NCBI GenBank assembly: GCA_016927935.1
Contig: JAFGLS010000175.1
Location: 1-37,633, forward strand
Source of the DNA: Syntrophaceae bacterium
GTDB lineage: Bacteria > Desulfobacterota > Syntrophia > Syntrophales > Smithellaceae
Direction of reading: 5' to 3'
DNA length: 37,633 bases
How positions within the stretch are numbered: position 1 is the stretch's first letter; every line of letters begins with the position of its first letter. The position numbers and the translations under genes are program-made. A model generated the notes under the pieces. The model was given only the letters and a program-made list of their open reading frames with translations, was not told where the DNA came from and made no database searches. Of this stretch, positions 5,897 to 34,035 are shown in pieces.

Positions 5897-8326
5897 ATGA
5901 CACCTTCAGCCAGACAATACAGCACGTTTTTTCTTCTTCCTTTCAATAACGCACAGGATGTTCTCAATGTTATTTCCTCAGATACGCGTCATATTAAAGA
6001 GATAAAAAACCTTTCATCCTTTCTTAAAAAAATTTCGACAAAATATCTTTTGACGATTCCCGACAGAGAAAGAATAAGTTGCGATGAAATGTCTTTACGC
6101 CGCTTGCTGAAAGCTTTTGATAATAAGCGAGCCGGTATTGTTTATTCAGATTTTGTGCTGCAGGAAGGAAATAATCTAATTAAATATCCATTGATAGATT
6201 ATCAGCCGGGTAGTATCCGCGACAATTTTAATTTCGGACACCTTTTGCTTTTTTCCTGCGATGTTATGAAAACCGCTATTCAAAAATACGGCTCTCTGCC
6301 ATCCGATGTGGATGCGGCTTTATACGACTTGCGCCTGAAAATTTCAACCGACCATGAACTGGTTCATTTGCCGGATTTTTTATACACGGTATTCATAAAA
6401 AAGAAGAAAAAAGCATCGGGCAGGCAAAAAGAAACTCACTTTGACTATGTTGCGAACGAAAATTTAATTCGTCAGAAAAAACTGGAGAAAATTGCGACTA
6501 ATCACTTAAAGCGCATCGGGGCATACCTGCCGAAACGTACAGAAATTGTAAAGGAGGAGCAGGAAGACTCGCAGTGGAAAACAAGCATCGTCATTCCTGT
6601 TCTTAACCGTAAAAAAACAATTGCCGAAGCGTTGGCCAGTGCTCTGGAACAAAAAACTGATTTTCCATTCAATATTATAGTTGTGGATAATCATTCCACA
6701 GATGGCACAACGGGTATTTTGAAAAGGTTTGCCGCGAAATATCCTCATCTTCACCATATCATCCCTTCGCGACGTGATTTAGGAATCGGCGGCTGCTGGA
6801 ATGAAGCAATTTATTCGCCGCATTGCGGACGCTATGTTGTCCAACTTGATTCCGACGATTTATACAGCTCGCCGCAATCAGTTCAAAAAATCGTGGACAC
6901 GTTGCGCAAAGGTCAATACGCGATGGTTGTCGGTTCTTATTCTCTTGTCAATGAAAAGCTTAAACAAATTCCGCATGGTTTCATCGGTCATCGGGAATGG
7001 ACGCGGGAAAATGGCCACAATAACCTGCTTCGTGTCAACGGCATGGGAGCGCCACGGGCTTTTAATTCCTCGGTTGTCCGTCGGTTTGGTTTTCCCAATG
7101 TCAGTTACGGTGAGGATTATGCAGTAGCATTGAGGATTACCCGTGAATATAAAATAGAAAGAATTTACGAAAATTTGTACATGTGCCGCCGCTGGAGAGG
7201 TAATACAGATGCCGAACTTTCTTGGGAAAAACAAAACCTCAACGACATTTATAAGGATAAACTGCGTACGGAAGAAATTGAAGCCAGGAAATGGGCAACA
7301 AAAGGAGATACTTCTTTCAATAAAGAGAGAATTTATGCTGAATTTTATGGGGAGAAAGATCTTTCTTTACCTGTGCTTTGCCAAAGCCTTTATGATACGC
7401 AAAAGAAAACCTGGCCAAAACTGGTTGAGGCCTGCGGAGATTTGGCGGTTGCTCGCACGAAGATGCTGTCTGGTCAGTATAAAGTTTTTCTGCAATATAA
7501 TCCGGCACGGGCGGTAAGCAGTGGCGCGGTGGTGGATGCTGAGTCAATAAAAAATAGGCCATGTTTTTTATGTGAAGATAACTTGCCGCCACAGCAGAAG
7601 GGTGTTTTATATAGAAATCAATATCTGATTCTCTGCAATCCCGCGCCGATTTTCGAAAAGCATTTTACTATAGTTGAACTGCAGCATAAACCGCAGGAAA
7701 TTGCCTCATCAATAAATTGGCTTTTACAATTGAGCGCCGATATGTCCGGTTATACTGTTTTTTATAATGGTCCTTCCTGCGGTGCTTCCGCTCCTGATCA
7801 TCTGCATTTTCAGATCATTCCCTTCAACGTTCTTCCTTTTTTAAGGGAATTAAAAAAACTGTCACCTGTCAAAGGGAAGTCTTCCCTTATATACAGCCGG
7901 TCCGAGATCTTTGACCGTTCAGCTGTTGCTTTGGAATCAAAAAATGTGGAGGCGTTAACTGAGCAGTTTCTTCACCTATTGAATGCGGTGCAAAAAACAC
8001 TTAAAATTAATGATGAACCGCCTGTTAATGTCTTTTGTACTTATTCCGGTAATAGCTGGAAACTGGTCGTGTTCCTGCGTCAAAAGCATCGTCCGGATGC
8101 TTATTTCGCGAAAGGTGAGAACAGAATTTTTATTTCTCCGGGAGCTATTGATATGGCCGGCTTTGTTATTACACCGCTTCTGGATAATTATAACCGTTTG
8201 GATTATAATGCTATCCGTGGAATTTATCGGGAAGTGTCTTTGCCGGGAAACACAATGGATATAATAGTAAAAGAATTATATAAGAAAACGATATATGAAT
8301 GGTACCGAAGAAGTAATCGTGGATAG
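5897..8326 (+). CDS. GT2 glycosyltransferase fused to DUF4922 (HIT-like) domain
   Basis: The 809-residue protein has three parts. Residues 1-170 look like a degenerate glycosyltransferase-like region. Residues 228-435 form a GT-A family 2 domain: SIVIPVLNR at 230-238, VVDNHSTDG at 262-270, the metal-binding DSDD at 318-321, and the ED pair at 407-408 as likely base. Residues 520-800 match DUF4922: CFLC at 556-559, [14 protein letters not shown], and HLHFQ at 635-639. H-x-H-x-Q is the signature of the GalT/Ap4A phosphorylase side of the HIT superfamily and also occurs in GDP-hexose phosphorylases. The fusion could therefore make or recycle a nucleotide sugar and transfer the sugar, but the chemistry is not established. 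The start has no clear ribosome-binding site. The next gene overlaps its 3' end by 32 bases. Confidence 0.85.
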
Positions 8327-8849
8327 CCTGATGAGTTTTTCCGAGGCAGTTGAAGGAACAACAGCTCCGGAGGAAATCATTCTTACGATGTCGCTCGTTG
8401 ATGTCCTTTATTATTCATTTGATGGCAGAAAGCACCAGGGTCAGATTATTGTCAACAGAGATCTGGAAGATGATGTTTATGAAATATTTAACTTTATCGA
8501 AAAGATTTTATTCCCCATCGGGAAAGTTGTTCCTATAGCCGCTTATCAGTGGGATGATTACACCTCCATGTCCGACAATAACTCCTCTTCTTTCAATTTT
8601 CGTGTAATCGATGGAACAACAAAGCTATCCATGCATTCGCTGGGTAAAGCTCTGGATATCAATCCGGTGCAAAATCCGGTGATTTATCCCAATGGAGTTG
8701 TTGTACCGGAAGGCGCGAAATATCTGCCGCAGGAAAGAGGAACCTTTACGGCAGATCACGCCATAGTTCAGGAATTTCTAAAACGCGGCTGGTACTGGGG
8801 GGGGGATTTTGATCAGCCGAAAGATTATCATCATTTCGAAAAACCCTGA
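8295..8849 (+). CDS. M15-family-like D,D-carboxypeptidase/endopeptidase
   Basis: The 184-residue product resembles the VanY/M15C metallopeptidase group that cleaves peptidoglycan stem peptides. The zinc-site motif [10 protein letters not shown] (about 115-124) gives the first His and the Asp, and DYHHFEK near the C-terminus gives the last metal ligand. Upstream, [26 protein letters not shown] and [12 protein letters not shown] match the family closely. No signal peptide is visible from this start, which is odd for a peptidoglycan enzyme; ATGs at 8331 and 8388 would give shorter forms without helping. It overlaps the fusion gene by 32 bases, so translational coupling is likely, and the pair may act together on the envelope (inference). 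Confidence 0.8.
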
Positions 8850-8862
8850 TAATAATTTATTT

Positions 8863-10287
8863 TCATTGATCTGTTTTTTTATCTTCTCCGCCGCCCAGTG
8901 TTTTGTAAAGTGTAATAAGGTTGCTGTTCTGGGCAAGGTGCAATAAAATCAATCCCTGCTGGGCGCTGTAAAGGGAACGCTGCGCATCCAGAACGGAAAG
9001 ATAGCTGTCCACTCCTTTTTCATAACGGATCTGAGAAAGACGATAGGTTTCCTGCAGTGCATCAACCAGTGACTGCTGCGCTGCCACCCTCTGAATAATC
9101 GTGCCTTTTTCAGCAAGCGCATCGGCTACTTCACGAAAAGCTGTCTGAATTGCCTTTTCATATTCCGCGATAGAAATTTCTTTTTCAATCTGGGTAACAT
9201 CATAAGCGTGCCATGTCCGGGCATCGAATATCGGCATAATAATCTGCGGTGAAAACATCCAGGTGCCTGATCCGGTTTTGAAAAGACCGGATAATTCATC
9301 ACTGGCCGTTCCAGCAGAAGCCGTCAGAGTGATACGCGGAAAGAAAGCCGCGCGGGCCGCTCCGATGTTGGCATTAGCAGCTTTGAGCTGATGTTCCGCA
9401 GCCAGAATGTCCGGCCTTGACAGAAGGATGTTCGACAACAAACCGGCGGAGATTTCCCGTGGAGGAATTACGCTTTTTAAATCTACGGGCAGAAATTCCC
9501 GGGAAACAGGCGAACCAACCAGAAGATTCAGGGCGTTTTCATCCTGCGTGACTCGTTGTGTGTATAGAGCAACATCACCCCTGGCATTATCGACCTGGCT
9601 TTGTGCCCGGCGAAGGTCTAGTTCAGAGGCGATGCCTGCGTCAGCTCTTTTTTTAATCAAATTATAGAGTGATTCCTGCGTGTTCAGCGTGGATGTGACG
9701 AGTTGAAGAACTTCTTTATCCGCGGCAAGAGATAGATAAACCTGAACTGTCGACGATATCATCATAAGCTGCGCACTACGACAAGCCTGATCCGTGGCCA
9801 GGTATTGCTCCAATGCATTGTCTTTCAGACTGCGGATACGGCCGAAGAAATCAATTTCCCAGGAAGCAATGCCGAGATTGACGTCGTGTTTTTCGGCGGT
9901 ATACGGACTACCACTGGATGACAGATCAGCCGGAGTGCGTTCTTTATACATACTCCCGATACCATTGATTGAAGGCAGGAGTTCGGCGCGTTGAATGCCG
10001 TAGTAAGCTCTTGCTCTTTCAACGTTGAGCGCTGCTATCCGGATATCGCGGTTGTTATGGAGAGCTGTTTCAATGACCTTGCGCAGACGCTCATCGGTAA
10101 TAAATTCCCGCCAGGGGAGTTCCGCAGCCGTTTTTGCGGTCGAATCAATTTTTGTTTCCTGATAGGCCGGGCCGGTCGGCCATTCGGAAGGTACCGGAAC
10201 GTCCGGACGCGAATATTGAGGGGCCATGGTGCAGCCGGCCGCAAAAAAAACGATGATGGATAATAAATAAATTATTTTTCTATACAT
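8863..10287 (-). CDS. RND-type outer-membrane efflux channel lipoprotein (OprM/NodT family)
   Basis: This TolC-like outer-membrane factor provides the exit duct of the tripartite pump. The 474-residue protein has a signal peptide ending in AAGC with lipidated Cys19, then YSRPDVPVPSEW, typical of OprM/NodT proteins. Two repeated outer-membrane-efflux domains follow (about 60-250 and 270-460). They include SWEIDFFGRIRSL, RADAGIASELDLRRAQSQVDNA in the first half, and RPDILAAEHQLKAANANIGAARAAFFP in the second. It starts 1 base after the pump gene stop, with AGAGGT upstream. It is the last gene of the operon and ends 13 bases from the convergent M15-like gene. Confidence 0.92.
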   Translation of the reverse strand: MYRKIIYLLSIIVFFAAGCTMAPQYSRPDVPVPSEWPTGPAYQETKIDSTAKTAAELPWREFITDERLRKVIETALHNNRDIRIAALNVERARAYYGIQRAELLPSINGIGSMYKERTPADLSSSGSPYTAEKHDVNLGIASWEIDFFGRIRSLKDNALEQYLATDQACRSAQLMMISSTVQVYLSLAADKEVLQLVTSTLNTQESLYNLIKKRADAGIASELDLRRAQSQVDNARGDVALYTQRVTQDENALNLLVGSPVSREFLPVDLKSVIPPREISAGLLSNILLSRPDILAAEHQLKAANANIGAARAAFFPRITLTASAGTASDELSGLFKTGSGTWMFSPQIIMPIFDARTWHAYDVTQIEKEISIAEYEKAIQTAFREVADALAEKGTIIQRVAAQQSLVDALQETYRLSQIRYEKGVDSYLSVLDAQRSLYSAQQGLILLHLAQNSNLITLYKTLGGGEDKKTDQ

Positions 10288-10288
10288 A

Positions 10289-13200
10289 TTATTGAACCTC
10301 TGATGAATTCGTCTCTTCCGGCTTGATCAAATTCTGCTGCTGTTTTCTGCCGAAAAATTTTTCGATCAGCACATAAAAGAGCGGTGAAAAAATAAGCACC
10401 AGAACGGTTGCCGTGATCATGCCGCCCAGCACACCGGTACCGATGGCATTTTGCGCGCCTGCTCCCGCTCCGGTTGTTAACGCCAGAGGCAGAACGCCGA
10501 AGCCAAAAGCCAGCGATGTCATGACGATGGGACGGAAACGCAGCTTGACCCCTTGAATCGTTGCTTCGATCAGTCCCATTCTTCTTTCAACACCTCCTTT
10601 GGCAAACTGGACAATCAGAATCGCATTCTTGGTGGTGAGTCCCAGTGTTGTTAAAAGACCAATCTGGAAATACACGTCATTGGCCATTCCCCTCATACTG
10701 GAGGAGATAATTCCTCCGATAACGCCGAGAGGTAGAACCAGTAAAATGGAAATCGGTATCGTCCAGCTTTCGTAAAGCGCAGCCAGACAGAGAAAGATGA
10801 CGAAAACAGAAAAGGCATAAAGCAGAGGCGCCTGCGAGCTGGACATCCGTTCCTGATAAGAGAGTCCGGTCCAGTCGAAGCCGAAACCCTTGGGGAGTTT
10901 TTCCACAGCTTCTTCCATGGCCTGCATGGCTTCGCCCGAGCTCTTACCGGGAGCAGGTTCCCCCCAGATATTAATGGAAGGAAATCCGTTGAAGCGATTC
11001 AACTGGGGAGGACCTGATGTCCAGCGGCCGGAGGCGAATGATGAAAAGGGGACCATCCTTCCCTGTATATTACGCACGTATAATTTTTCCAGATCTTTGG
11101 GCAGCATGCGGTAAGCAGCGTCTGCTTGAACAAAGACTCTTTTTACACGGCCTCCCTGCATGAAGTCATTAACATACGCGCTGCCGAAAGCGGCAGAAAG
11201 CGTTCGATGGATGGAGGAAATGGGAACGCCCAGCGCTCCTGCTTTTTCCCAGTCCACATCAATGCGATACTGGGGTACGTCCGCCATGCTGTTGGGACGT
11301 ACAGAAGTAACGCGCGGATCTTTTGATACAATGCCAAGAAGTTGATACTGGACGTTCATCAACGTCTGGTGTCCCAGTCCTCCTCGATCCAGTAGCTCGA
11401 AATCGAATCCTTTGGCCATCCCCAGTTCAGGAACGGCGGGAGGCGGAAAGGTAAAAACCATGGCGTTGCGAATTCCGGAAAGTGCCATCATGGCTCGTCC
11501 CGCAACGGCCTTAGCTTTAAGGTCCTTTCGCTTGCGAAGATCCCAGTCTTTTAATTTGATAAAGACCATACCATTGTTTTGTGCCCTGCCTGAAAAGCTG
11601 ACACCGGCAATGGTGAAAACGGATTCCACCGCCTCTTTTTCTTTTTCCTGAAAATACTTTTCAATGATTTTCTCAACGTCTTTTGTCTGTTCGAGCGTGG
11701 ATCCGGTCGGCATGATGACTTGGGAAAGTAAGATGCCCTGATCTTCATCCGGCAGATAAGCAGTGGGCATACGGAAATACAGCACTCCCATAACCACAAG
11801 AATCACCAGAAAAACGACCAGATAGCGCGTTACCCGGGTTAGAGAATGATCGACGACTTTTACGTATTTATTCCGTATGTTAAAGAACAGGCGATCGAAC
11901 CACAAAAAAAACGGTCTCAGAAGAGTCATTGCGCTCTCCGCAGGTTCATGTCCCGCCGCTACAGGTTTTAAGAGCGATGCGCACAGCACCGGTGTCAGGA
12001 TCAACGCCACGACAACCGACAGCAGCATGGCGGAAATGATCGTTATGGAGAACTGACGGTAAATGACCCCGGTTGAGCCTGGGAAAAATGCCATAGGACC
12101 GAAAACGGCGGCCAGAACAAGACCGATGCCGATGAGCGCGCTGGTAATCTGTTCCATGGACTTGGCAGTCGCTTCCATGGGCGGAAGCCCTTCCTCACTC
12201 ATAATTCGCTCGACGTTTTCCACGACCACGATGGCGTCATCCACCAGAAGGCCGATGGCCAGCACCATGGCAAACATGGTCAACATGTTAATGGAGTAAC
12301 CGAAGAGCCCAAGAATACCGAATGTACCCAGAATAACCACCGGTACGGCAATTGTGGGAATCAGCGTGGCGCGAATGTTTCCCAGAAAAAGTAACATCAC
12401 CAGAAAGACCAGAAAAATCGCTATGAAAAGGGTCTTGATCACTTCATTGATGGACACTTTGATGAAGGGGGTGGTGTCGTGAGGATATACCACTTTAATT
12501 CCCGCTGGGAAAAAGCGGCTCATTTCCTCCAACTTTGTCCTGACAGCTTGAGCAACGTCCAAAGCGTTGGCGCCAGTTGCCTGACGAAGGGCAATACCGG
12601 AGGCCGGTTTCCCTTGATAGGCGACATCGATATCGTAAAATTCGGTACCCAGTTCGGTTCGTCCCACGTCGCTGATGCGTACCACAGAGCCATCTGGATT
12701 CGTACGGATGGGAATGGCGGCAAACTCGTCGGGAGAGGAAAGCATATTCTGAACGATAATGGAGGCGTTCAAACGCTGACCCTCGACAGCGGGGCCGCCT
12801 CCGAATTGTCCGGCGGAAACTTCCACGTTATAGGATTTGAGCGCCATGAGGACATCGTCAATAGTAAGATGATAATCGGTGAGCTTATCAGGGTTGAGCC
12901 AAACACGCATGGCATAACCGCCGCCGAAGATTTCCACCTCGCCCACACCGGGTACCCGTGCCAAAACCTTTTCCAGATTGGACTTGACAAAATCGGTCAA
13001 ATCTTTGTTGTCCATTCTGCCGTCTTCCGAAATCAATCCCACGACCATCAGATAATTTCTCGTGGATTTGCGAACTTCAACTCCCTGGGTTGCCACCACA
13101 TCGGGAAGACTTGTCAAAGCCGCTTGGACTTTGTTTTGCACCTGAGACCAGGCTAGGTCAGGATTGGTTCCCGGGGCAAACGTCAATTCCAGACGCGAGC

Positions 13201-13462
13201 TCCCCGCAGAATCGCTGCTTGCCGAAATATACAGTAGATTGTCCAATCCGGTCATTCGCTGTTCGATGACCTGAGTTACACTGTTTTCCACCGTTTCCGC
13301 TGAAGATCCCGGATACGATGCCGAAACAGAAATTGACGGCGGAGCCATCTGCGGATACTGAGAAATTGGCAGGTTGTAAATGGCTAGAGCGCCCCCTGCC
13401 ATGATGACAATGGCAATGACCCACGCGAATACCGGACGTTTCAGGAAAAATTTCGATAGCAT
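10289..13462 (-). CDS. RND multidrug efflux transporter, HAE1 family (AcrB/MexB-like)
   Basis: This inner-membrane proton-driven pump is the engine of the tripartite system, capturing hydrophobic drugs from the periplasm. At 1057 residues it is of normal AcrB length. It starts with the family's membrane anchor (FFLKRPVFAWVIAI, then LPISQYPQMAPPSISV). The transmembrane proton-relay pair is Asp408-Asp409 in GLLVDDAIVVVENVERIM, followed by the mid-protein membrane block. The second half has a mirrored docking/porter region and the GVLGGMITATVL end. GGAGG lies 6 bases before the ATG, inside the 12-base gap after the adaptor gene. The exact substrate range cannot be read from sequence. Confidence 0.96.
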   Translation of the reverse strand: MLSKFFLKRPVFAWVIAIVIMAGGALAIYNLPISQYPQMAPPSISVSASYPGSSAETVENSVTQVIEQRMTGLDNLLYISASSDSAGSSRLELTFAPGTNPDLAWSQVQNKVQAALTSLPDVVATQGVEVRKSTRNYLMVVGLISEDGRMDNKDLTDFVKSNLEKVLARVPGVGEVEIFGGGYAMRVWLNPDKLTDYHLTIDDVLMALKSYNVEVSAGQFGGGPAVEGQRLNASIIVQNMLSSPDEFAAIPIRTNPDGSVVRISDVGRTELGTEFYDIDVAYQGKPASGIALRQATGANALDVAQAVRTKLEEMSRFFPAGIKVVYPHDTTPFIKVSINEVIKTLFIAIFLVFLVMLLFLGNIRATLIPTIAVPVVILGTFGILGLFGYSINMLTMFAMVLAIGLLVDDAIVVVENVERIMSEEGLPPMEATAKSMEQITSALIGIGLVLAAVFGPMAFFPGSTGVIYRQFSITIISAMLLSVVVALILTPVLCASLLKPVAAGHEPAESAMTLLRPFFLWFDRLFFNIRNKYVKVVDHSLTRVTRYLVVFLVILVVMGVLYFRMPTAYLPDEDQGILLSQVIMPTGSTLEQTKDVEKIIEKYFQEKEKEAVESVFTIAGVSFSGRAQNNGMVFIKLKDWDLRKRKDLKAKAVAGRAMMALSGIRNAMVFTFPPPAVPELGMAKGFDFELLDRGGLGHQTLMNVQYQLLGIVSKDPRVTSVRPNSMADVPQYRIDVDWEKAGALGVPISSIHRTLSAAFGSAYVNDFMQGGRVKRVFVQADAAYRMLPKDLEKLYVRNIQGRMVPFSSFASGRWTSGPPQLNRFNGFPSINIWGEPAPGKSSGEAMQAMEEAVEKLPKGFGFDWTGLSYQERMSSSQAPLLYAFSVFVIFLCLAALYESWTIPISILLVLPLGVIGGIISSSMRGMANDVYFQIGLLTTLGLTTKNAILIVQFAKGGVERRMGLIEATIQGVKLRFRPIVMTSLAFGFGVLPLALTTGAGAGAQNAIGTGVLGGMITATVLVLIFSPLFYVLIEKFFGRKQQQNLIKPEETNSSEVQ

Positions 13463-13474
13463 CGGGAACCTCCG

Positions 13475-14659
13475 TTAATTCGTTTTTACTGGTGGAACCA
13501 TATTCGGGGTTTTTTCTTTGTTTTCGAAAGGAACAGCTTTAACGGGAATACCCGGTTTTATCTTCAGCATGCCTTCGACAATCACCTGTTCTCCCGGTTC
13601 AAGGCCTGCTGAAACCAGCCAGTCCGGACCTATCGCCCGGTCAAGCGTGATTTGCTTTTCCTGAACTTTTCCGTCTTTGCCGACGACTAAAGTCAAGGGG
13701 TTTCCCTTGGGATCGCGAGACACGGCTTGTTGGGGAATAAGTATGGCATTTTTATGAAGGCCTTCCTTTATAACTGTTCGCACAAACATGCCCGGCATTA
13801 GGAATCCCTTCGGATTGGGAAATACAATGCGCAAAATGACCGATCCGGTTGTCGGATCAACTGTGACATCTTGAAATTGAATTTTCCCTTTCAACGAATA
13901 TTCTGAATTATCGTTTAGAAATAATCGAACATCCTGCTGATTTTTGCCGCTTTTTTCCAGTAAGCCTTCCTGCATTTGACTGCGCAATTTGAGGATGTCC
14001 GCAGTGGATTGAGTGACATCCACATACATGGGATCCAATTTTTGGATGGTAGCTAAAGCAAGGGGCTGATGCGCAGTAACCAGAGCACCTTCCGTGACAT
14101 TAGCTCTGCCGATTCGTCCCGATATAGGCGCGGTAATGGTGGTGTATTGCAAGTTGATGCGAGCAGCTTCTACATTGGCCTTCCCATACTGAATATCCGC
14201 CTGAACCTGTTTGAGCAAAGCGGAAGCATCGTCATAATCTTGCCGGCTGACCGCTTTTTGTTCCAGCAGATCTTTGAAACGTTCGACTCTCAATTGAATC
14301 GTTGTCAATTGGGCTTCGGAGCGAGCCAGCGCAGCCTTGGCGTTATCCAAAGCAACTTGATACAGAATGGGATCAATCTGAAAAAGAGGCTGTCCTTCTT
14401 TGACATCAGACCCTTCGGTAAATAAACGTTTCTGAATGATGCCGCCCACCTGAGGGCGTACTTCGGCAACCTGATTGGCGGATGTCCTGCCGGACAATTC
14501 TGTTGTCGTAACGACTGGTTTCGTTTGTATGGTAATCACGGCTACTTCCGGCATCGGTGGCGGGCCGCCCGTTTTTTTCTCGCCGCAACCAGTTAGAATC
14601 AAACTGATAATGAAAATGATCGTAATAATAATGAGTCCTGCTTTTTTGTGACTTTTCAT
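13475..14659 (-). CDS. RND periplasmic adaptor lipoprotein (AcrA/MexA-like)
   Basis: This membrane-fusion protein bridges the RND pump and the outer-membrane channel. The 394-residue product has a lipoprotein signal peptide with LTGC and Cys25. It then has the lipoyl half-motif VRPQVGGIIQKRLFTEGSDVKEGQ..., split by a helical hairpin at about 95-170, with the second half TITAPISGRIGRANVTEG. Beta-barrel and membrane-proximal domains follow. The GAGGT site is well spaced. The gene is 44 bases downstream of tetR and 12 bases upstream of the pump gene. Confidence 0.94.
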   Translation of the reverse strand: MKSHKKAGLIIITIIFIISLILTGCGEKKTGGPPPMPEVAVITIQTKPVVTTTELSGRTSANQVAEVRPQVGGIIQKRLFTEGSDVKEGQPLFQIDPILYQVALDNAKAALARSEAQLTTIQLRVERFKDLLEQKAVSRQDYDDASALLKQVQADIQYGKANVEAARINLQYTTITAPISGRIGRANVTEGALVTAHQPLALATIQKLDPMYVDVTQSTADILKLRSQMQEGLLEKSGKNQQDVRLFLNDNSEYSLKGKIQFQDVTVDPTTGSVILRIVFPNPKGFLMPGMFVRTVIKEGLHKNAILIPQQAVSRDPKGNPLTLVVGKDGKVQEKQITLDRAIGPDWLVSAGLEPGEQVIVEGMLKIKPGIPVKAVPFENKEKTPNMVPPVKTN

Positions 14660-14703
14660 TAGGCACCTCTTTTCTATGGAAGATAAATAGTGAATAGGTT
14701 TTT

Positions 14704-15342
14704 CTATTTTTTCTTCTTAAATTTTGTTTTTTTCTTTTGTTCGGATTGAGGTTCAATGCCGATGACAATGTTTTTTAAATAACTGCGGATTTCATTGCGA
14801 ACGTGCTTCTCATCGGGTTTGTTGCCCATGAGATTTTCCAACATGGCCAACTGAGTGCTTAGCATCCACAGGCATTTGGCGAGTACTGGAGTATCTACAG
14901 CAACTGAAAGGCGCCCCAGTCTTTGTTCCGCCGCCAAATAAACGGCTAACCCTTTAATCGCGTATTGTGGTCCTTTTTCTCTTTTTTCTATAATTTCCTG
15001 CATGCGAATGTGCAAATGTTGGTCGGCAAAGATGGAATAGATTATCGGCGTGATTTCATGGTAAGCGTGGTAAACCGCAAATAGAATATTTTCCAGATTT
15101 TCCAATAGCGTACGTTTGCCGACTTCCAGCGGCAAATTCTGCATGAGGTTTTTAGCTTCTTGCACGCGATTTTGTACCACTTCGAAAATCAACTCGGCCT
15201 TGTCCTTGAAGTGGTGATAGATCAACCCCTCGGCGACTTTTGCCTCTTGTGCTATTTTACTGGTGGTGAGACGGACCAGGCCATGCGTTTGCAGCAATCG
15301 ATTCGTGGCTTTTATGATATTTTGACGGTTGTCGTTAAGCAT
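14704..15342 (-). CDS. TetR/AcrR-family repressor of the RND operon
   Basis: The 212-residue protein has an N-terminal TetR helix-turn-helix (about 20-45, TTSKIAQEAKVAEGLIYHHFKDKAEL) and a variable all-helical ligand-binding domain. The C-terminus ends in a lysine-rich tail. It is the first gene of the four-gene efflux operon and lies right behind a promoter embedded in inverted repeats, so autorepression relieved by a pump substrate is the natural model. The ribosome-binding site is weak. The inducer is unknown. Confidence 0.9.
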   Translation of the reverse strand: MLNDNRQNIIKATNRLLQTHGLVRLTTSKIAQEAKVAEGLIYHHFKDKAELIFEVVQNRVQEAKNLMQNLPLEVGKRTLLENLENILFAVYHAYHEITPIIYSIFADQHLHIRMQEIIEKREKGPQYAIKGLAVYLAAEQRLGRLSVAVDTPVLAKCLWMLSTQLAMLENLMGNKPDEKHVRNEIRSYLKNIVIGIEPQSEQKKKTKFKKKK

Positions 15343-15486: not shown

Positions 15487-16224
15487 TTAATGATAATATG
15501 AAAAACGGGCGACGATAATGCCGGTAAATTTTTTGTTCGATTTCAAATAGTTCGACAGTGTTTTCTTCGAAATTGTCACTTTTCCTTCTTTGCTGGAAGC
15601 GTGAAGCAGGCGCAGGTTTTTTCCCTGCCATAAAGCAAATCCAACGTGCGCCACATCCAATCCTTCATGCTTTGCGGCAAAAGCGATAATATCTCCAGTT
15701 CTTATTTTTTCTTTCAGGAAGTTTATTTTGTTTTTGCCGATTATATGGAAAAATTTGCGGGAAAGATTTTTTTCTACCATATGCATTTTTTTAAGTTGCG
15801 TTTTGTTTCCTAATGCCGGATATAATTTTTTGTGTGTGATCATGAAATTTATTTTTTTGTGTTTAGGTTCTCCTCCAAGTTGGCGGGATAAATCAGTTAA
15901 AAACCCCTTTTTTTCATTGTTGCGCAACCAGTCGATAAAATAATGCAGGCGGGAAGAATAGCCGTCAATTTTCCCATTACGATAACGGATTAATGTGAGA
16001 TTTTTCCGGAATTCATGATGTGAAATTTTTCCTAAAATGGCACACAGGGCGAGGGAAAGAACCGTCTCCACGAATGTCATGCAGTCGAAAGCAGATAAAT
16101 TGACAATCAGGTTTTCTTTATCCGGGCCTTCCAGAGTTCCGTCTTTATAAGGCCTGTTAATAAACAGACACCCTATTTCCGTTATTAAATCGCCGTAAGA
16201 AAATTCGTTGTATCCCTTTCCCAT
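15487..16224 (-). CDS. DUF1460 protein (NlpC/P60-like amidase relative)
   Basis: The 245-residue product matches DUF1460, a family related to cysteine peptidases/amidases that act on peptidoglycan fragments. The likely nucleophile is the Cys in SAFDCMTFVETVLSLAL (about 43-59), with a His in DVAHVGFA (about 195) as partner. RTGDIIAFAAKHEG and LLHASSKEGKV are also family-like. From the ATG at 16224 there is no signal peptide, although relatives are often exported. The upstream frame is open for some way but offers no convincing start, so a cytoplasmic location or an unusual start is possible. AAAGGATT precedes the ATG. Confidence 0.75.
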   Translation of the reverse strand: MGKGYNEFSYGDLITEIGCLFINRPYKDGTLEGPDKENLIVNLSAFDCMTFVETVLSLALCAILGKISHHEFRKNLTLIRYRNGKIDGYSSRLHYFIDWLRNNEKKGFLTDLSRQLGGEPKHKKINFMITHKKLYPALGNKTQLKKMHMVEKNLSRKFFHIIGKNKINFLKEKIRTGDIIAFAAKHEGLDVAHVGFALWQGKNLRLLHASSKEGKVTISKKTLSNYLKSNKKFTGIIVARFSYYH

Positions 16225-18430: not shown

Positions 18431-20077
<1,647 letters not shown>

Positions 20078-20096: not shown

Positions 20097-21056
20097 TTAA
20101 GCCATTTTATTTAAAATTATGTCCCTATCTTTAAGTTTCTTGGTATTAGCCAGAAGACCTTCAGCCGCAATGAGGTCGAGAACATAAATTAACTCACCGC
20201 CCTGTTTGGAATATTGCTGACTGTACGATATGGGAATTTCGGGCGTAACATTACCCAAGAGGGAACTGGTAACAGATTCTGCTTTGCGTGCACCATTGGC
20301 CAGAAGAACAACTGTTTTTGCCCGATAAACCAGCTCCGCTCCCATACTTATGGCATATTGCGGCGAGTCCGCCTTGGTGCGGAAATGTCCGTCGGCAACA
20401 GCATTGGCGATTGTGTTGTCATCGAGTTTAACAAGCAGCACTGAACTGCCTTTAAAAGGGATGCCTGATTCGTGAAAGGCCACATGGCCGCGACCCCCCA
20501 CTCCGATAATCTGAAGATCAATTCCTCCTGCCGCTTTTATTTTTCTTACATACCCGTCAAGAATTTCCTTCCGGATCCAGGCAAGATATTTTGATTTTGG
20601 TTTAGCTTTGATTTTAATGGATTTTCCAGCGTCCGTTCCCTCTAATTCCCAGTCTTTTTTGTTTTCCTTCAATTCCTTAATTAAAATTTTCTGGTCAATC
20701 AGCGAACCGTAAGGCACTCGTGTTTCCTGAAACTTTTTATGGAGAAGACTGAAAAGTTCCTGAATCATAAAATAAGCGTAGCTTTCCGGGTGAATGACCC
20801 GCTGTTGAATGTTATCTCCCGGTAAGCCAACATATTCATCAAGGTTGAAACTGCGAATACAGCCGGAATCAAACTTTCCTTCATTGGCTGCCTTGGCAAA
20901 ATGTTTGTAAAGTCCTGTAGGTGAATTTCCAGTAGCCAGTCCCAAAACGGCCTTTTTTTTCCTTTTGAGTATCTCGATTGATTTTTTAATAACAATGTCC
21001 GCCGCGATCTCACTCATGTGCGTAAAATCTCTTGTAACAAAAACGGTTATTCCCAT
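20097..21056 (-). CDS. Divergent glucosamine-6-phosphate deaminase/isomerase (NagB-like)
   Basis: The protein has the NagB fold: LGLATGNSPTGLY at 38-50, SFNLDEYVGL at 69-78 with Asp73 in the general-base position, HPESYAYFM at 89-97, and IGVGGRGHVAFHESG at 184-198. His191 and Glu196 match the catalytic His and Glu. The residue matching Escherichia coli Asp141 is Arg189. It is 319 residues long against about 240-266 for typical NagB, with roughly 35 extra residues around 120-165. NagB interconverts GlcN-6-P with Fru-6-P plus ammonia. Next to glmM and gdhA, a role in amino-sugar synthesis is possible, but a different sugar phosphate substrate cannot be excluded. GGGAGAA precedes the ATG. It lies 20 bases after glmM. 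Confidence 0.78.
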   Translation of the reverse strand: MGITVFVTRDFTHMSEIAADIVIKKSIEILKRKKKAVLGLATGNSPTGLYKHFAKAANEGKFDSGCIRSFNLDEYVGLPGDNIQQRVIHPESYAYFMIQELFSLLHKKFQETRVPYGSLIDQKILIKELKENKKDWELEGTDAGKSIKIKAKPKSKYLAWIRKEILDGYVRKIKAAGGIDLQIIGVGGRGHVAFHESGIPFKGSSVLLVKLDDNTIANAVADGHFRTKADSPQYAISMGAELVYRAKTVVLLANGARKAESVTSSLLGNVTPEIPISYSQQYSKQGGELIYVLDLIAAEGLLANTKKLKDRDIILNKMA

Positions 21057-21076
21057 AAATTTTTTTCTCCCTCAAT

Positions 21077-22426
21077 TTATCCCAGTTCGCTTTTCACAAT
21101 ATCAGCAATCTGTTGGCAGTATTTTGTAGTCAGTACTTCGGAAGGTCCCTCTACCATGACGCGGCACATATTCTGGGTTCCGGAATAACGGACCAAAACA
21201 CGTCCTTCATCGCCAAGTTCTTTTTCTGTCTGTTTTATTGCTTCAGTAAGTTTCGGGACTTTTTCAATAGCCGGTTTGCTTTTTACGTCAACATTGATCA
21301 GTTTTTGCGGGAAAATATCCATCATCCGTGCCAGTTCAGAAAGCGGCTTTCCTTTTTTTACCATAGCAGCTATCAGTTGCATGGCAGCAACAATGCCGTC
21401 ACCAGTGGTATGGTGTCTGAGAAAAATTATGTGTCCCGCTTCTTCACCGCCGATAACGGCTCCCAGGCGCAACATATCTTCCAGAACATAACGGTCTCCA
21501 ACTTTGGAAGCATGATACTTGAAACCGTATTTCTTGCAAGCAACTCTTAAGCCGAGATTACTCATCACGGTACTGACCAGAAGATCGTTCTTCAATTTGC
21601 CTTCTTTTTTCAGGATACTCGCACAAATGATTAGAATCTGATCACCTGTTATATTGTGACCCGTTTCATCCACCGCAATAAGACGATCACCATCTCCGTC
21701 AAAAGCCAAACCTATGGCTGCCCCACTTGTCACCACCCTTTTCCTGAGGTCTTCAGTATGCTGTGAACCACATTTAGCATTTATGTTCATGCCATCCGGA
21801 TTATTGTGAATAACTTCAACTTCAGCACCAAGTTCAACAAAGGAATCGGGCGCTACTTTGTATGTCGCGCCGTTGGCAGTATCCAGAACAATTTTCATCC
21901 CTTCCATGGAGAAATTACGGGGAAATGTATTTTTCAAAAATACAATGTAACGTCCATGAACATCATCTATACGGGAAGCTTTTCCCATTTCACTTGCCGT
22001 AGGCAACAGGTCATTGAGTTTGTTATTAAGGATTAAATCTTCAATAATATTTTCCTGTTCATCTGTCAGTTTGTAGCCGTTACCACCAAAAATTTTCAGC
22101 CCGTTGTCCCGAAAGGGGTTGTGAGAGGCTGAAATTACAATGCCGGCATCGGCACGCATGCTTTGGGTTATGAAGGCAATTCCGGGTGTTGGCAGCACAC
22201 CAACCAAGTAGGGGTATCCCCCCATGGAAGTGATTCCTGCTTCCAGTGAGCTTTCTAGCATATACCCGGAAAGTCTGGTGTCCTTTCCGATGATAACATG
22301 GGCGCGGTGATGATTTTTTTTGAAAAGGTGTGCCACGGCCTGACCAACGCCGAAAGCTATTTCCGCGTTCATCGGGTAGCGATTGGCTTCGCCTCTTATT
22401 CCGTCGGTCCCAAATAATTTACCCAT
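21077..22426 (-). CDS. glmM: Phosphoglucosamine mutase
   Basis: GlmM converts glucosamine-6-phosphate to glucosamine-1-phosphate for UDP-GlcNAc, peptidoglycan and LPS synthesis. The 449-residue product starts MGKLFGTDGIRGEAN as the family does. It has the phosphoserine loop ISASHNP with Ser101, the metal loop DGDGDR, the sugar-binding GEEAGH and the phosphate-binding RYSGTQNMCRV near the C-terminus. AGAGGAGA lies just before the ATG. It sits between the beta-helix protein and the NagB-like gene, a coherent amino-sugar cluster. Confidence 0.94.
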   Translation of the reverse strand: MGKLFGTDGIRGEANRYPMNAEIAFGVGQAVAHLFKKNHHRAHVIIGKDTRLSGYMLESSLEAGITSMGGYPYLVGVLPTPGIAFITQSMRADAGIVISASHNPFRDNGLKIFGGNGYKLTDEQENIIEDLILNNKLNDLLPTASEMGKASRIDDVHGRYIVFLKNTFPRNFSMEGMKIVLDTANGATYKVAPDSFVELGAEVEVIHNNPDGMNINAKCGSQHTEDLRKRVVTSGAAIGLAFDGDGDRLIAVDETGHNITGDQILIICASILKKEGKLKNDLLVSTVMSNLGLRVACKKYGFKYHASKVGDRYVLEDMLRLGAVIGGEEAGHIIFLRHHTTGDGIVAAMQLIAAMVKKGKPLSELARMMDIFPQKLINVDVKSKPAIEKVPKLTEAIKQTEKELGDEGRVLVRYSGTQNMCRVMVEGPSEVLTTKYCQQIADIVKSELG

Positions 22427-22487: not shown

Positions 22488-23744
22488 TTATTTCTTAAAT
22501 AAATTTATGGAAGGCAACTTATCCTTTACCTTCTGGCAAAGAGTATCTACCACCTGATTGAGCCATATACTGCCTTTTGATGAAATTCCGGCAGGCAGGT
22601 TTTGAATTGTTTCAATATAATTTATCCTGTCTTTTCCGGCAACTTTTTCAAAGGCATTAAGAAATATATCTTTTGATTTCTCCGTATTTTTCAGTTCTTT
22701 TAGATCTTTTCCGCTAAAGAGTTCTTCAATATAGGTCATTTTGGGATGAAGCTCATGCCTGGCCGAAATAGAAGTTTTCTTCTGTTTTTTAGGAATTACG
22801 GCAAATGCTTTTTCCGCCATGGCTTTTAATCTTTTCAGTCGTTCCTTTTTGGCTGCGGATAGCTGTTCCATGGCGCCGGAATAAAGAAGAAAGCCCCAAG
22901 GCTGGGTTTCCAGGAAAGGCTTTCGGACATGGGTATACCATGTTTCCAGAGCAACCAGATTGGCCAGATAGATAATGTTGTTTTCCACTATTCTTTTAAA
23001 TCCCGGATAAGCTGCCGGCATATATATCTGCACTCCAACCGCAGGAGGATTCTCGAAGATTAATTGATTGTCCTGAAGATAGTCATGACGCAAAATGGAA
23101 CCAGCTGCCACAACATTGCCGAATCCCAGCCGCATCGGTCCGATAATTCCGCCCTGCCCGCCTAAAAAAATAGGAGGTTGGTTTAACATTACCCCTCGTG
23201 GAACATCGCCAAGCAAAGAAGGCGTTGTTTTATCGGCATCAGGCGTAAAATTAAAATGGATATAAGAACTCCCCACTTCGCTGTGATTAGACCGACTGGT
23301 GCCGCCAGCCATCAGGCAGTCACAAAAGTTAATGAGGCTGCCCAATGTCACGAAGGGAAAAAGAATGGTCTGCTTCAATCCGACACAATGGGCACCGCCC
23401 GCTTCCTCTTCCAGAATGCATCCTTCACGAACGTGCGCGCCCATTCCCATGTTTGACTTGTTCAGAAAAACAGACTTGCTGAAAAAGCCGCCCTTTAGTT
23501 CAACCTTTTCTCCGAGTTGACAGTCTTCAATCGTTACCGGCGCCTCGTAGCCAAGCTGGCAGCCGTCAGAAATGACCATTTTACTCCCATAAATTCTGCA
23601 TCCCGGATAAATTCTGACACCCTTTTTAGAAATATTATTAATATTGACTTCGTTACCAATATCGGTTGTTCCGGGATTGGGAATTTCAACGCCGCACTCG
23701 AGCAGTTGACGTATTTTTTCATTAGCTCTCGGTTTAAAATCCAT
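22488..23744 (-). CDS. Left-handed beta-helix protein, GlmU-acetyltransferase-like
   Basis: The first 240 residues of this 418-residue protein show hexapeptide-type repeats of a left-handed parallel beta-helix (VRIYPGCRIYGSKMVISDG, VTIEDCQLGEKVELKGG, MGMGAHVREGCILEEEAG, LGFGNVVAAGSILRHD). Proteins of this type are usually annotated as UDP-GlcNAc pyrophosphorylase-related. However, no nucleotidyltransferase (LAAGxGTRM) domain is present, so only an acyltransferase or sugar-nucleotide-binding role can be argued. The rest is helical and lysine-rich, with unknown function. GGAGG is 6 bases before the ATG. It lies between gdhA (54-base gap) and glmM (61-base gap), which points to amino-sugar metabolism. 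Confidence 0.75.
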   Translation of the reverse strand: MDFKPRANEKIRQLLECGVEIPNPGTTDIGNEVNINNISKKGVRIYPGCRIYGSKMVISDGCQLGYEAPVTIEDCQLGEKVELKGGFFSKSVFLNKSNMGMGAHVREGCILEEEAGGAHCVGLKQTILFPFVTLGSLINFCDCLMAGGTSRSNHSEVGSSYIHFNFTPDADKTTPSLLGDVPRGVMLNQPPIFLGGQGGIIGPMRLGFGNVVAAGSILRHDYLQDNQLIFENPPAVGVQIYMPAAYPGFKRIVENNIIYLANLVALETWYTHVRKPFLETQPWGFLLYSGAMEQLSAAKKERLKRLKAMAEKAFAVIPKKQKKTSISARHELHPKMTYIEELFSGKDLKELKNTEKSKDIFLNAFEKVAGKDRINYIETIQNLPAGISSKGSIWLNQVVDTLCQKVKDKLPSINLFKK

Positions 23745-23798: not shown

Positions 23799-25157
<1,359 letters not shown>

Positions 25158-25224: not shown

Positions 25225-26226
25225 CTATATTTCCTCAATAACAGTAAGATCTTCATATTCCATTACTGTAGACATGGCTTTGTTATCTACATCAAAACCA
25301 TCTTCATAGGCTGCGGCTACAGGATTTAGTCCTCCTACAAGAATCATACCTACTTTGTGAATATCCACGTCAATCTGACAAATAGGAGTTCCAACTGTGC
25401 CGATGGAAATAGCGGCGCTGATGCCAGCTTTATTGAAATCGGTTATTATTTCTTCCGCTAGATTCCGGCTAAGCGATGGTATTTCGCGGAAGTTTGCCAG
25501 AATTTTACCTTCTTCTTTGGAGGCGACTTCTTTTACAGAAGTCATTTTGCCGCGAATAAAAATTTCCGACGGATCAAGCGATGAACCGGAATAATTAATA
25601 AGCTCGACAAATCTTAAAGGCTCACCATTTTGTACCTGAAGTATGCCGCCGAACTTGGAATCAATAGGAATGCCATGTTTTAAAAAAACTCCATTAATTA
25701 AAATGCTACATACCGTGGCCAATCCGATCTTGCCTTCAGGAACAATAACATCTCCCAGGTATTTACCCGCTGAAGCAACGGCAACGCGATTGGAAACAGC
25801 TATTTTCTTTTTAAAAACAGGTTTCATCACTTCCAGTGCTTTTTTAAATTGCTCCTGCGGTAAGAAAGAAATATTAACCGGAACAAGACCGCGCCTCTTT
25901 TTTATGTCAAAAGTTGTTTTAAAAGATAAGGTATCAATTCGAGATATAGAAAGACTGATTTTATCCCGGACTCGGGCATTGTTAATTTCATCAAGTCCAA
26001 GACTGGTGATTATTCTGCCGTCACGGCGACCGACGAGTTTTGTCAGTCCTTTTTCGTCCATTAGTTTTAGATGATAACGGACAGTCCTCTCGCTTAATTG
26101 AACCCCCCGTTCATTCATCTTTCGTGCGATTACACGCGCACCCTGTGATTCTGAATTTTCATTAAGAATCTTTAAGATTAAAAGGACTTTTCTCTCTATA
26201 TCTTCCGGGTTAAAAAGTTGTTTCAT
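25225..26226 (-). CDS. NrpR-type (DUF128) transcriptional regulator
   Basis: The protein has an N-terminal winged helix (about 8-75: ERKVLLILKILNE, ERTVRYHLKLMDEKGL, GRRDGRIITSLG) and one NrpR regulatory domain (about 95-333; SNRVAVASAGKYLG, GLATVCSILINGVFLKHGIPIDSKFGGILQ, SIGTVGTPICQID, MILVGGLNPVAAAYEDG). In methanogens NrpR represses nitrogen assimilation genes and releases DNA when 2-oxoglutarate rises. Here one regulatory domain follows the helix-turn-helix, and gdhA lies directly downstream. The frame opens at ATG 26271, which would add 15 residues. ATG at 26226 is preferred because it begins MKQLFNPEDIERK as relatives do, although neither start has a good ribosome-binding site. Confidence 0.85.
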   Translation of the reverse strand: MKQLFNPEDIERKVLLILKILNENSESQGARVIARKMNERGVQLSERTVRYHLKLMDEKGLTKLVGRRDGRIITSLGLDEINNARVRDKISLSISRIDTLSFKTTFDIKKRRGLVPVNISFLPQEQFKKALEVMKPVFKKKIAVSNRVAVASAGKYLGDVIVPEGKIGLATVCSILINGVFLKHGIPIDSKFGGILQVQNGEPLRFVELINYSGSSLDPSEIFIRGKMTSVKEVASKEEGKILANFREIPSLSRNLAEEIITDFNKAGISAAISIGTVGTPICQIDVDIHKVGMILVGGLNPVAAAYEDGFDVDNKAMSTVMEYEDLTVIEEI

Positions 26227-26234
26227 ATGGCAAT

Positions 26235-26287
26235 CGGCAATCGTTTGCCGTATCCCTACTTTCAAACCCATCTTTTGTCAAACAAAA
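26235..26287. promoter_or_regulatory. Two palindromes at the nrpR start (candidate operators)
   Basis: CGGCAATCGTTTGCCG (26235-26250) has perfect 6-bp arms and a 4-base centre. TTTTGTCAAACAAAA (26273-26287) has perfect 6-bp arms and a 3-base centre. Both lie between the candidate promoter and the preferred start codon. They do not match the GGAA-N6-TTCC operator described for archaeal NrpR, so binding by NrpR is only a hypothesis. The first could also fold in mRNA and cover the start. Confidence 0.45.
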
Positions 26288-26856: not shown

Positions 26857-27372
26857 TTAAGCCAGCAGCAATTTTAAGATTATAAAAAAAATAATAACTA
26901 ATACTGTTAACCAACAGATTACTATCAAATAATGCTGATTTTGAGGGTGCTCCAGATAATTTTTGACCTGTATTTCTACTTTTTCAGAATTCACCATATC
27001 CACAATAGAGCGAAGAAGTAAAGCATGATTTTCAAACATATTGGAAAAAAAATAAAACCCCTTGGTGGTTGTTAAGAGGAAGTAGGCCTTTTTGTTCAGG
27101 TCAAGAATCGCTAAATGTGTTACTTCCGGCCAGGTAAAATTCTTCTCTCGGAAAAATTTTTTCATTTTTAAACCGTCTCTGGTTACGATAATTTCTCTCT
27201 CTGCCGCTTCTATTCCAACAATGAGTGTAGCAAAAAAGAAAACAGCCAGAATAATTTGTTCCCATGGCTGGCCTTTAAACAAGCTTAATAATAACAACAA
27301 ACAGAGAAGCATGACCATCGTAATAAAAGGCACAAGAAAAGCCTTCTTTATTTTAAAAATATTCTGTTCCAT
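26857..27372 (-). CDS. PH-like (YcxB-type) membrane protein of unknown function
   Basis: The 171-residue protein has two hydrophobic segments near the N-terminus (about 11-31 and 38-56), a soluble beta-rich middle (IIVTRDGLKMKKFFREKNFTWPEVTHLAI... AYFLLTTTKGFYFF) and a C-terminal transmembrane helix (about 147-170). This arrangement resembles the bacterial PH-like/YcxB membrane proteins. No catalytic motif is seen. It lies 56 bases after moaC on the same strand and may be cotranscribed, but nothing links it to molybdopterin synthesis. The ribosome-binding site is weak. Confidence 0.65.
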   Translation of the reverse strand: MEQNIFKIKKAFLVPFITMVMLLCLLLLLSLFKGQPWEQIILAVFFFATLIVGIEAAEREIIVTRDGLKMKKFFREKNFTWPEVTHLAILDLNKKAYFLLTTTKGFYFFSNMFENHALLLRSIVDMVNSEKVEIQVKNYLEHPQNQHYLIVICWLTVLVIIFFIILKLLLA

Positions 27373-32967: not shown

Positions 32968-34035
32968 TTACAGCTTTTCCACTACGTCACGTATCTTTCC
33001 GCTTTCCACCAGTTCCAAAAAATCTTCTCCCAACGGTGCGGATAATTCCACAGCCGTGCGCCAGTTTTGAATCCTTGTCTCTGGGTCATCAATGAAAGTA
33101 ACAAGATCAGTTCGATTGGGAACTTTTCCGAGAGGAAGAGTTTCTATAAAAATTGGCGAAGGAAAAATCATTAAAACATTGCTTAAGGTATTAGCATCTG
33201 GTGTACGGCGTGTTATTTTTTTATCAAGCCAACCCGGAATTATTCTTTCCTGGTGATGAAAAAAAAGAACTATTTCATCTTCTTTGGCGGCAAACTGGTG
33301 AGTAAGATGATAATCAATAAGACCTCCATCGCGATAAACTCCACGGGGAGCGTCGTAAACATCGTGCACCCCTTTAATGACTAAGGGAATGGCTCCGGAG
33401 GCCAGGACGGCGTATCTAAAGTTTATTTCGTTAAGTTGTACACATTTCCCCCGGAACTGCGAATTCAGACAAAAGAACGGCGGTTTTGACGTGTTATAAA
33501 AAACGACCCTTTCCGCGAATTTATAAATATTTTCTCTGCTTAAATAATTAAACAAAAAGCAAGTTATTAAGCCTATTTTTTGTATCAAGGTGTTGTTAAA
33601 AGAGAGAAGTCCACGTGACCGTGATGTAATTACAATCAGCCGGTAATTTTTGTTAGCCATAGCGAAAGGAAGCGCGTCATCTTCCAGGTATTCATTGATG
33701 ATGCCGGTAATTTTTTCGAGTGTCGTTGCCGGTGTATCTTTTTTGGTGTATTGAACGTTTATATAGGTATCCAGCAATTTTTGGTAAGATTTTACCGCTT
33801 CCGGCTGGAGCCAGGCGGCGAAGCGGAAAGCACCTGCTGAGGAACCGACTAAATTAACGGGGTTTGCCCTTCCCAGAAAACTTCCCTGGAGAAGAGTCAA
33901 ATCGAATCCGCTGGCGATAAGCCAGCGAGGTCCCACCGCCGGTCCGAAATAAGTGGATATGGAATCAAAATTAAATCCGCCATCTTTAATGATTTTGTAG
34001 ATATTTTTACCGGCTTTTATTCTTATTCTGTTCAT
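32968..34035 (-). CDS. Patatin-like phospholipase
   Basis: The 355-residue protein has the patatin Ser-Asp dyad: GSSAG at 64-68 with Ser66 as nucleophile, and DGG with Asp236 in GVYRDGGLIDYHL. The oxyanion loop that usually comes before it (GGGxxG) is not obvious; the closest is the glycine-containing stretch around 30-45 (FGPAVGPRW). No signal peptide is visible. Patatins of this sort hydrolyse acyl esters of phospholipids or storage lipids; the actual substrate is unknown. It is transcribed away from proA, ahead of the radical SAM gene. Confidence 0.82.
   Translation of the reverse strand: MNRIRIKAGKNIYKIIKDGGFNFDSISTYFGPAVGPRWLIASGFDLTLLQGSFLGRANPVNLVGSSAGAFRFAAWLQPEAVKSYQKLLDTYINVQYTKKDTPATTLEKITGIINEYLEDDALPFAMANKNYRLIVITSRSRGLLSFNNTLIQKIGLITCFLFNYLSRENIYKFAERVVFYNTSKPPFFCLNSQFRGKCVQLNEINFRYAVLASGAIPLVIKGVHDVYDAPRGVYRDGGLIDYHLTHQFAAKEDEIVLFFHHQERIIPGWLDKKITRRTPDANTLSNVLMIFPSPIFIETLPLGKVPNRTDLVTFIDDPETRIQNWRTAVELSAPLGEDFLELVESGKIRDVVEKL

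Follow-up and report, generated by a model that had tools for sequence, protein, structure and literature searches.

A peptidoglycan-recycling module built of a GT2 glycosyltransferase, a DUF4922 protein, and a leaderless, probably cytosolic SpoIID is widespread among bacteria and undescribed in the literature searched. We encountered it through a gene that fuses the first two of these components, located in a 37,633-nucleotide stretch of Syntrophaceae DNA (the window). Profiles, predicted structures, and the gene neighborhoods of relatives make it very probable that this fused gene belongs to such a module.

A gene fusing a glycosyltransferase to DUF4922

The fused ORF (5897-8326, + strand) encodes a single chain of 809 aa, in which an apparently degenerate N-terminal domain is followed by GT2 and then by DUF4922, and it overlaps by 32 bp with an M15-like ORF (8295-8849, + strand). 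On the 5' side lie leuS and an LptE-like gene, while an efflux-type set and then the gene for an AmiA-like protein follow on the 3' side on the opposite strand. The features discussed below are the following:

5897..6541, + strand: N-terminal domain, residues 1-215; has the look of a degenerate GT-A half; mixed alpha/beta model; kept in all GT homologues
6584..6982, + strand: GT2 domain, Pfam match at residues 230-362, fold continuing to about residue 475; PF00535; 2z86 match
6848..6859, + strand: DSDD, residues 318-321, metal/nucleotide-sugar motif; invariant in 53 sequences
7112..7117, + strand: ED motif, residues 406-407; invariant in 53 sequences
7367..8323, + strand: predicted Apa2-like phosphorylase module, comprising DUF4922 and the C-terminal part (residues 491-809); PF16269, AlphaFold2 model, Apa2 match
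7562..7573, + strand: CxxC, residues 556-559, with the two Cys unchanged in 55 sequences; could form half of a GalT-like zinc site
7799..7813, + strand: HLHFQ, residues 635-639, predicted nucleotidyl-His active site; no change of H, H, or Q in 55 sequences
8295..8849, + strand: M15_4 peptidase gene; PF13539; metal-site residues; no signal peptide
15487..16224, - strand: AmiA-like (NlpC/P60-type) amidase/peptidase; PF07313; same module in relatives

An earlier note on this DNA had read a GT2 domain with DSDD and a second domain with HLHFQ in one chain, and both the profiles and the invariance of the motifs agree with that reading. Glycos_transf_2 (PF00535) matched residues 230-362 with an E-value of 2.9e-24, and DUF4922 (PF16269) matched residues 498-640 with an E-value of 2.6e-53, its 180 bits lying well above the gathering cut-off of 23.6. 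No Pfam match was found for residues 1-215. Ap4A_phos_N (PF19327) gave a weak, sub-threshold match to residues 574-647 (E 2.6e-4; 21.0 versus 23.1 bits). As this is below the gathering score, the chain was not accepted as a member of the Ap4A phosphorylase family, and the likeness is kept here as one of how the domain may work. PF16269 also scored above its cut-off in the control genomes of Lactococcus lactis and Synechococcus elongatus, with matches that may be true DUF4922 or relatives of the Apa2 type.

Predicted structures of the two halves

The HxHxQ residues (H145, H147, and Q149 of the aligned segment) were invariant in all 55 DUF4922 homologues aligned, as were the CxxC pair, H99, and H107 of the same segment. 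The AlphaFold2 model of the DUF4922 part (pLDDT 92.6) found its best fold match in Apa2, the yeast Ap4A phosphorylase, with a Z-score of 23.3 and an rmsd of 3.1 over 263 aligned residues at 17% identity. Foldseek likewise matched the model to Apa2 over nearly its whole length (E 1e-11), and a profile search of PDB sequences with the DUF4922 part returned Apa2 again (4i5t, E 5e-6), while DUF4931, ADP-glucose phosphorylase, and GalT followed far behind in the structural comparison (Z 8-10). The predicted model thus combines HxHxQ with a HIT/Apa2-type fold, the two features that define nucleotidyl phosphorylases and transferases of the HIT superfamily. The earlier note had named an unrelated fold, or loss of HxHxQ in most orthologues, as outcomes that would speak against it; instead, a HIT-type fold was predicted and the residues were kept throughout the alignment.

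With Apa2 (PDB 4i5t/4i5v/4i5w), DUF4922 shares the fold of the whole domain and the HxHxQ active site, but its CxxC is invariant, and in recycling operons its gene is joined to that of a GT or lies next to it. GalT and ADP-glucose phosphorylase (1hxq, 2h39) resemble it in their HxHxQ nucleotidyl-His chemistry and in a possible Cys/His zinc site, yet they show a weaker fold match (Z 8-9.4) and lack a partner GT. By analogy with GalT, a zinc-binding role for the CxxC pair is possible. No function has been described for DUF4922; among 5.39 million open papers searched in full text, two mention it, and both deal with plant vitamin C genes.

Across 53 GT homologues, DSDD, ED, and many further residues were invariant. 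When the whole GT part was modeled (AlphaFold2, pLDDT 88.1), the best Foldseek match was K4 chondroitin polymerase, which has two GT-A domains, and the GT2 domain superimposed on this enzyme (2z86) with a Z-score of 25.5 and an rmsd of 3.1 over 257 aligned residues. In the model, residues 1-215 resemble another GT-A half in degenerate form; the 2z86 alignment barely covers this region. Having the PF00535 profile, a GT-A fold, a DxD motif, and an ED motif at the usual place of the catalytic base in GT2 enzymes, the domain qualifies as a member of this family. It shares fold, DxD, and ED with K4 chondroitin polymerase and other GT2 enzymes, but differs in its degenerate first half, the absence of polymer export genes, and its recycling context. 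As the motifs are invariant in the homologues of both parts, GT and DUF4922 are both expected to be active enzymes.

Genomic context across phyla

Relatives (n = 76) were collected from a single genome scan and belong to the Thermodesulfobacteriota, Bacteroidota, Acidobacteriota, Binatota, Planctomycetota, Fibrobacterota, and Ignavibacteriota, with some labeled Pseudomonadota or Myxococcota, all by phylum labels that derive from metagenome bins and may be imprecise. Of 94 loci, 24 had the genes for GT and DUF4922 fused and 68 had them adjacent; the remaining 2 showed another arrangement. In a tree of the GT part, fused forms occupied two separate clades, Smithellaceae and Prevotella, so the fusion arose at least twice; a third change on the tree corresponds to L015, where the ORF breaks off. 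The Prevotella fusions carry SpoIID at the C-terminus of the same chain and are followed by ampG.

Among the 56 loci with enough flanking sequence, 52 had at least one recycling-type neighbor within about 8.5 kb: SpoIID at 42, AmpG at 24, an AmiA-like protein at 12, AmgK-like and MurU-like proteins at 11 each, and M15 at 10. At the other 4, no SpoIID, AmpG, AmiA-like, M15, AmgK-like, or MurU-like neighbor was found. The order in Syntrophales is SpoIID-AmpG-MurU-AmgK-LeuS-LptE-GT/DUF4922-M15-AmiA-like. In the source genome, SpoIID, AmpG, and the MurU-like and AmgK-like genes are grouped on another contig (C216), which is why SpoIID and AmpG cannot be seen from the window. Several of these names are deliberately qualified: measured against NCBIfam equivalog cut-offs, the AmgK homologues reached 60-99 of 550 bits, the MurU homologues 116-118 of 250 bits, and the cluster-linked AmpG about 164-184 of 350 bits, so that all three are best called "-like." The fused gene is thus genomically linked to a muropeptide permease and to sugar-salvage genes, as expected of peptidoglycan recycling.

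The earlier note had also named conservation of the gene pair as a check and suggested that the fusion channels sugar activation or recycling to transfer. The GT–DUF4922 pair is indeed fused or adjacent in 92 of 94 loci, and two separate fusions, with adjacency elsewhere, speak for a functional link; activation of sugars for an envelope glycan fits the neighborhoods less well than recycling does. The pairing with M15 did not extend much beyond Smithellaceae and Syntrophales. M15 was rejected as the general partner because it is limited to Syntrophales loci and L039, L094, and L099; the general partner is SpoIID.

Individual loci departed from the common arrangement. The GT-DUF4922 frame lies in pieces in some Smithella assemblies (L015 3484-5055; L072 4341-6755; L101/L102), by frameshift, decay, or assembly error. 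In L099 (925-2427), a domain resembling a GNAT acetyltransferase precedes DUF4922. Both L195 and L209 have one more ORF (527 aa and 118 aa, respectively) separating GT from DUF4922, as though it had been inserted into the pair. In Binatota-like genomes (cluster c12, L042-L076), a protein of 184-225 aa recurs upstream of AmiA-like-GT-DUF4922-SpoIID; the one example searched (L057) had no Pfam or NCBIfam match.

The associated hydrolases are probably cytosolic

The M15-like ORF encodes 184 aa and matched Peptidase_M15_4 (PF13539) with an E-value of 1.7e-18 (67.4 versus 25 bits); the metal-site residues H114, D121, and H180 were conserved in 26 sequences, as was D177. The AmiA-like protein (15487-16224) matched PF07313 with an E-value of 6.5e-48 and has C48, H193, and H208 conserved in 31 sequences; in relatives, its gene adjoins that of M15 or GT. 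The catalytic Glu of SpoIID was invariant in 54 sequences.

No hydrophobic leader was detected in M15, the AmiA-like protein (close homologues), or the SpoIID proteins of the clusters by a simple hydrophobicity scan, in which no trained predictor was used and two exported controls did show one. The cluster SpoIID proteins start straight at the folded domain (xEPxIxVGI...), and the M15 and AmiA-like proteins among the close homologues likewise start at theirs. In L039, the M15 protein is longer and its N-terminal segment is hydrophobic. Lacking signal peptides, SpoIID, M15, and the AmiA-like protein are probably located in the cytosol. Nucleotide sugars are cytosolic, and the single GT-DUF4922-SpoIID chain of Prevotella therefore argues for a cytosolic SpoIID as well. 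For M15, from which an envelope target had been suggested in the earlier note, the connection to the cell wall holds, but action in the envelope fits poorly with a protein whose close homologues have no leader; trimming of muropeptides after their import into the cytosol is the more likely role.

The SpoIID proteins of Bacillus and Waddlia are alike in family and catalytic Glu but are exported, unlike those of the clusters, which have no signal peptide. Chlamydial (Waddlia) SpoIID can work as a water-using muramidase on denuded glycans (PMC6635528), a precedent for ring opening driven by water.

Relation to known recycling routes

The loci of the Bacteroidales L198 and L200 read GT-DUF4922-SpoIID-AmpG-NamZ-MurT-MurK-MurQ (in L200, profiles identified NamZ, the BadF-type kinase, and MurQ, and a NagX-like membrane protein marks where MurT is expected). 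This order matches the Tannerella forsythia operon Tanf_08345-08385, gtf-gtf-lytB-ampG-ybbC-murT-murK-murQ, in which AmpG is a proven muropeptide permease (PMC5388701). The T. forsythia operon differs in how its genes are named: the pair is annotated as gtf and gtf, SpoIID as a LytB amidase enhancer, and no role has been assigned to them. From the gene order, we infer that the second gtf (Tanf_08355) encodes DUF4922. AmpG of T. forsythia imports GlcNAc-anhMurNAc and GlcNAc-MurNAc, and the organism grows on GlcNAc-anhMurNAc via AmpG but shows only restricted growth on free anhMurNAc; no AnmK is predicted, and how anhMurNAc is then metabolized "remains to be explored," in the words of the authors (PMC7670621). 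The SpoIID, GT, and DUF4922 genes of T. forsythia are concrete candidates for anhMurNAc metabolism without AnmK. If SpoIID needs GlcNAc on its substrate, this would explain the growth on GlcNAc-anhMurNAc and the poor growth on anhMurNAc; poor import would explain it equally well. Beyond the work on Tannerella, no GlcNAc-MurNAc phosphorylase, AmpG-linked amidase enhancer, or cytosolic SpoIID was found in literature titles and abstracts.

The AmpG-NagZ-AnmK and AmgK-MurU routes of E. coli and Pseudomonas are similar in that AmpG-, AmgK-, and MurU-like genes occur in the cluster. They differ in that the cluster genomes mostly lack NagZ and often AnmK, and have GT, DUF4922, and leaderless SpoIID instead. 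The phylum was represented by 197 genomes. GH3, the family searched for NagZ, was present in 4 of the 22 that strongly matched DUF4922, compared with 131 of the 175 other genomes (p 3e-7 by Fisher test). This test ignores shared ancestry (the carriers fall in six families) and covers GH3 alone of the glucosaminidase families GH3, GH20, and GH84. DUF4922 matches with E-values of 1e-5 to 1e-3, mostly short HIT-like frames, were excluded from these statistics. In three of the 4 carriers, GH3 lay within a frame of large size (669-833 aa); the match in the other one was weak. In a survey of 31 genomes of the order, GH3 was found in four, and the two NagZ-like ones came from genomes without DUF4922.

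No credible AnmK was found among these 31 genomes. In the source genome, which is about 91% complete, GH3 was not found, and the lone AnmK match was weak (24 bits over 67 positions in a 1005-aa frame), so the two genes of the canonical NagZ/AnmK route were not recovered from it. For AnmK itself, there was no anti-correlation with DUF4922 among the 197 phylum genomes (2 of 22 versus 14 of 175, p 0.7), and it was present in 8 of 31 carrier genomes of other phyla. SpoIID as a strict substitute for AnmK was rejected, since AnmK is rare at the phylum level without being anti-correlated and persists in some carriers among Binatota-like bacteria and planctomycetes; SpoIID may stand in for AnmK where the latter is missing.

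A proposed recycling scheme and its alternatives

We slightly favor a role in recycling in which the GT is coupled to nucleotidyl chemistry of the HIT type. The fused gene would then be the part of a cytosolic module that splits the glycan. A full scheme of six steps, less likely than not to be correct in every part, would run as follows. AmpG would import GlcNAc-anhMurNAc or GlcNAc-MurNAc, either bare or still carrying peptide, as shown in T. forsythia and suggested here by homology. The peptide would be stripped and trimmed by the cytosolic AmiA-like and M15 proteins, judging from their families and missing signal peptides. Cytosolic SpoIID may then hydrate the 1,6-anhydro ring, reversing the lytic transglycosylase reaction, to give GlcNAc-MurNAc. 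In place of NagZ, the GT2 enzyme could run its reaction backward, with UDP as the most likely NDP, to yield UDP-GlcNAc and MurNAc. The Apa2-like DUF4922 would pull this step by converting UDP-GlcNAc and Pi to GlcNAc-1-P and UDP through a His-nucleotidyl intermediate, and would hand UDP back to the neighboring GT; fold and active site are predicted, and the substrate is our suggestion. Finally, MurNAc would be converted to UDP-MurNAc by the AmgK-like and MurU-like proteins, as their homology suggests, and in Bacteroidales MurK and MurQ can use MurNAc too.

The central idea is a disaccharide split without hydrolase, in which a reverse GT2 with catalytic UDP, a fused phosphorylase, and cytosolic SpoIID replace NagZ plus AnmK in several phyla; it is possible, if doubtful as yet. 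Reverse GT reactions are usually uphill, and by a textbook estimate the coupling to phosphorolysis would bring the sum no further than near neutral. The sum is the conversion of a glycoside with phosphate to a sugar-1-phosphate, and it would conserve the energy of a bond that NagZ would waste. The inverting chemistry of GT2 would fit the beta-1,4 GlcNAc-MurNAc bond. For both GT and DUF4922, reaction direction and substrates as given here are what we deduce from fold and context.

A forward route, close to the reading of the earlier note, is less probable than the favored one but the most probable of the alternatives. Here, DUF4922 would make or exchange a nucleotide sugar, for instance by moving UMP from UDP-GlcNAc to MurNAc-1-P as GalT does, and GT would glycosylate a muropeptide under recycling or some other acceptor. 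Enzymes with a GT-A fold normally work in the forward direction, the catalytic motifs of the GT are fully retained, and HxHxQ with the invariant CxxC resembles GalT as well as Apa2. However, the nearest fold is Apa2 (Z 23), with GalT far behind (Z 8), the Syntrophales cluster already has a MurU-like uridylyltransferase, and no conserved flippase, lipid-carrier, or polymerase gene was recognized nearby, the neighbors being salvage genes.

Signaling or storage seems improbable: GT or the pair would make a cytosolic derivative of imported muropeptides that reports wall damage, to be turned over by DUF4922. The parts do appear cytosolic, and AmpG-linked muropeptides signal beta-lactamase induction in other bacteria, but no recurrent regulator was seen in the neighborhoods except in Prevotella's own flanks, and linkage to NamZ and MurTKQ suggests nutrition. 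Least probable of all is a plain Ap4A (dinucleoside polyphosphate) phosphorylase with incidental linkage to GT since, despite Apa2 being the best match in both structure and profile, adjacency to one GT is near-universal across phyla, two fusions exist, and the invariant CxxC has no counterpart in the aligned stretch of Apa2, which covers part of that protein.

Since the recycling module occurs in Prevotella, other Bacteroidales, and several more phyla, it may be one of the main ways in which bacteria other than the model proteobacteria recycle their cell walls. If confirmed, it could also offer a drug target.

Other features of the window

Between the M15 and AmiA-like genes (8863-15342, - strand) lies an ordinary-looking efflux operon, encoding an outer-membrane factor of 474 aa (OEP, by profile), an RND-pump-like protein of 1057 aa, a lipoprotein-like protein of 394 aa, and a TetR-like protein of 212 aa. 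Near the module, a phosphomannomutase/phosphoglucomutase (PF02878-80) is encoded beside a protein with a glucosamine-6-phosphate isomerase domain (20097-22426, - strand), and a CTP synthase gene (18431-20071) adjoins these sugar-phosphate genes. Three ORFs on the - strand, 22488-23744, 26857-27372, and 32968-34035 (418, 171, and 355 aa), had no Pfam match at an E-value of 1e-5. The NrpR family (PF01995) is best known from archaea; an NrpR-like nitrogen regulator of this family is encoded at 25225-26271 (- strand), directly upstream, by orientation, of a glutamate dehydrogenase gene (23799-25154).
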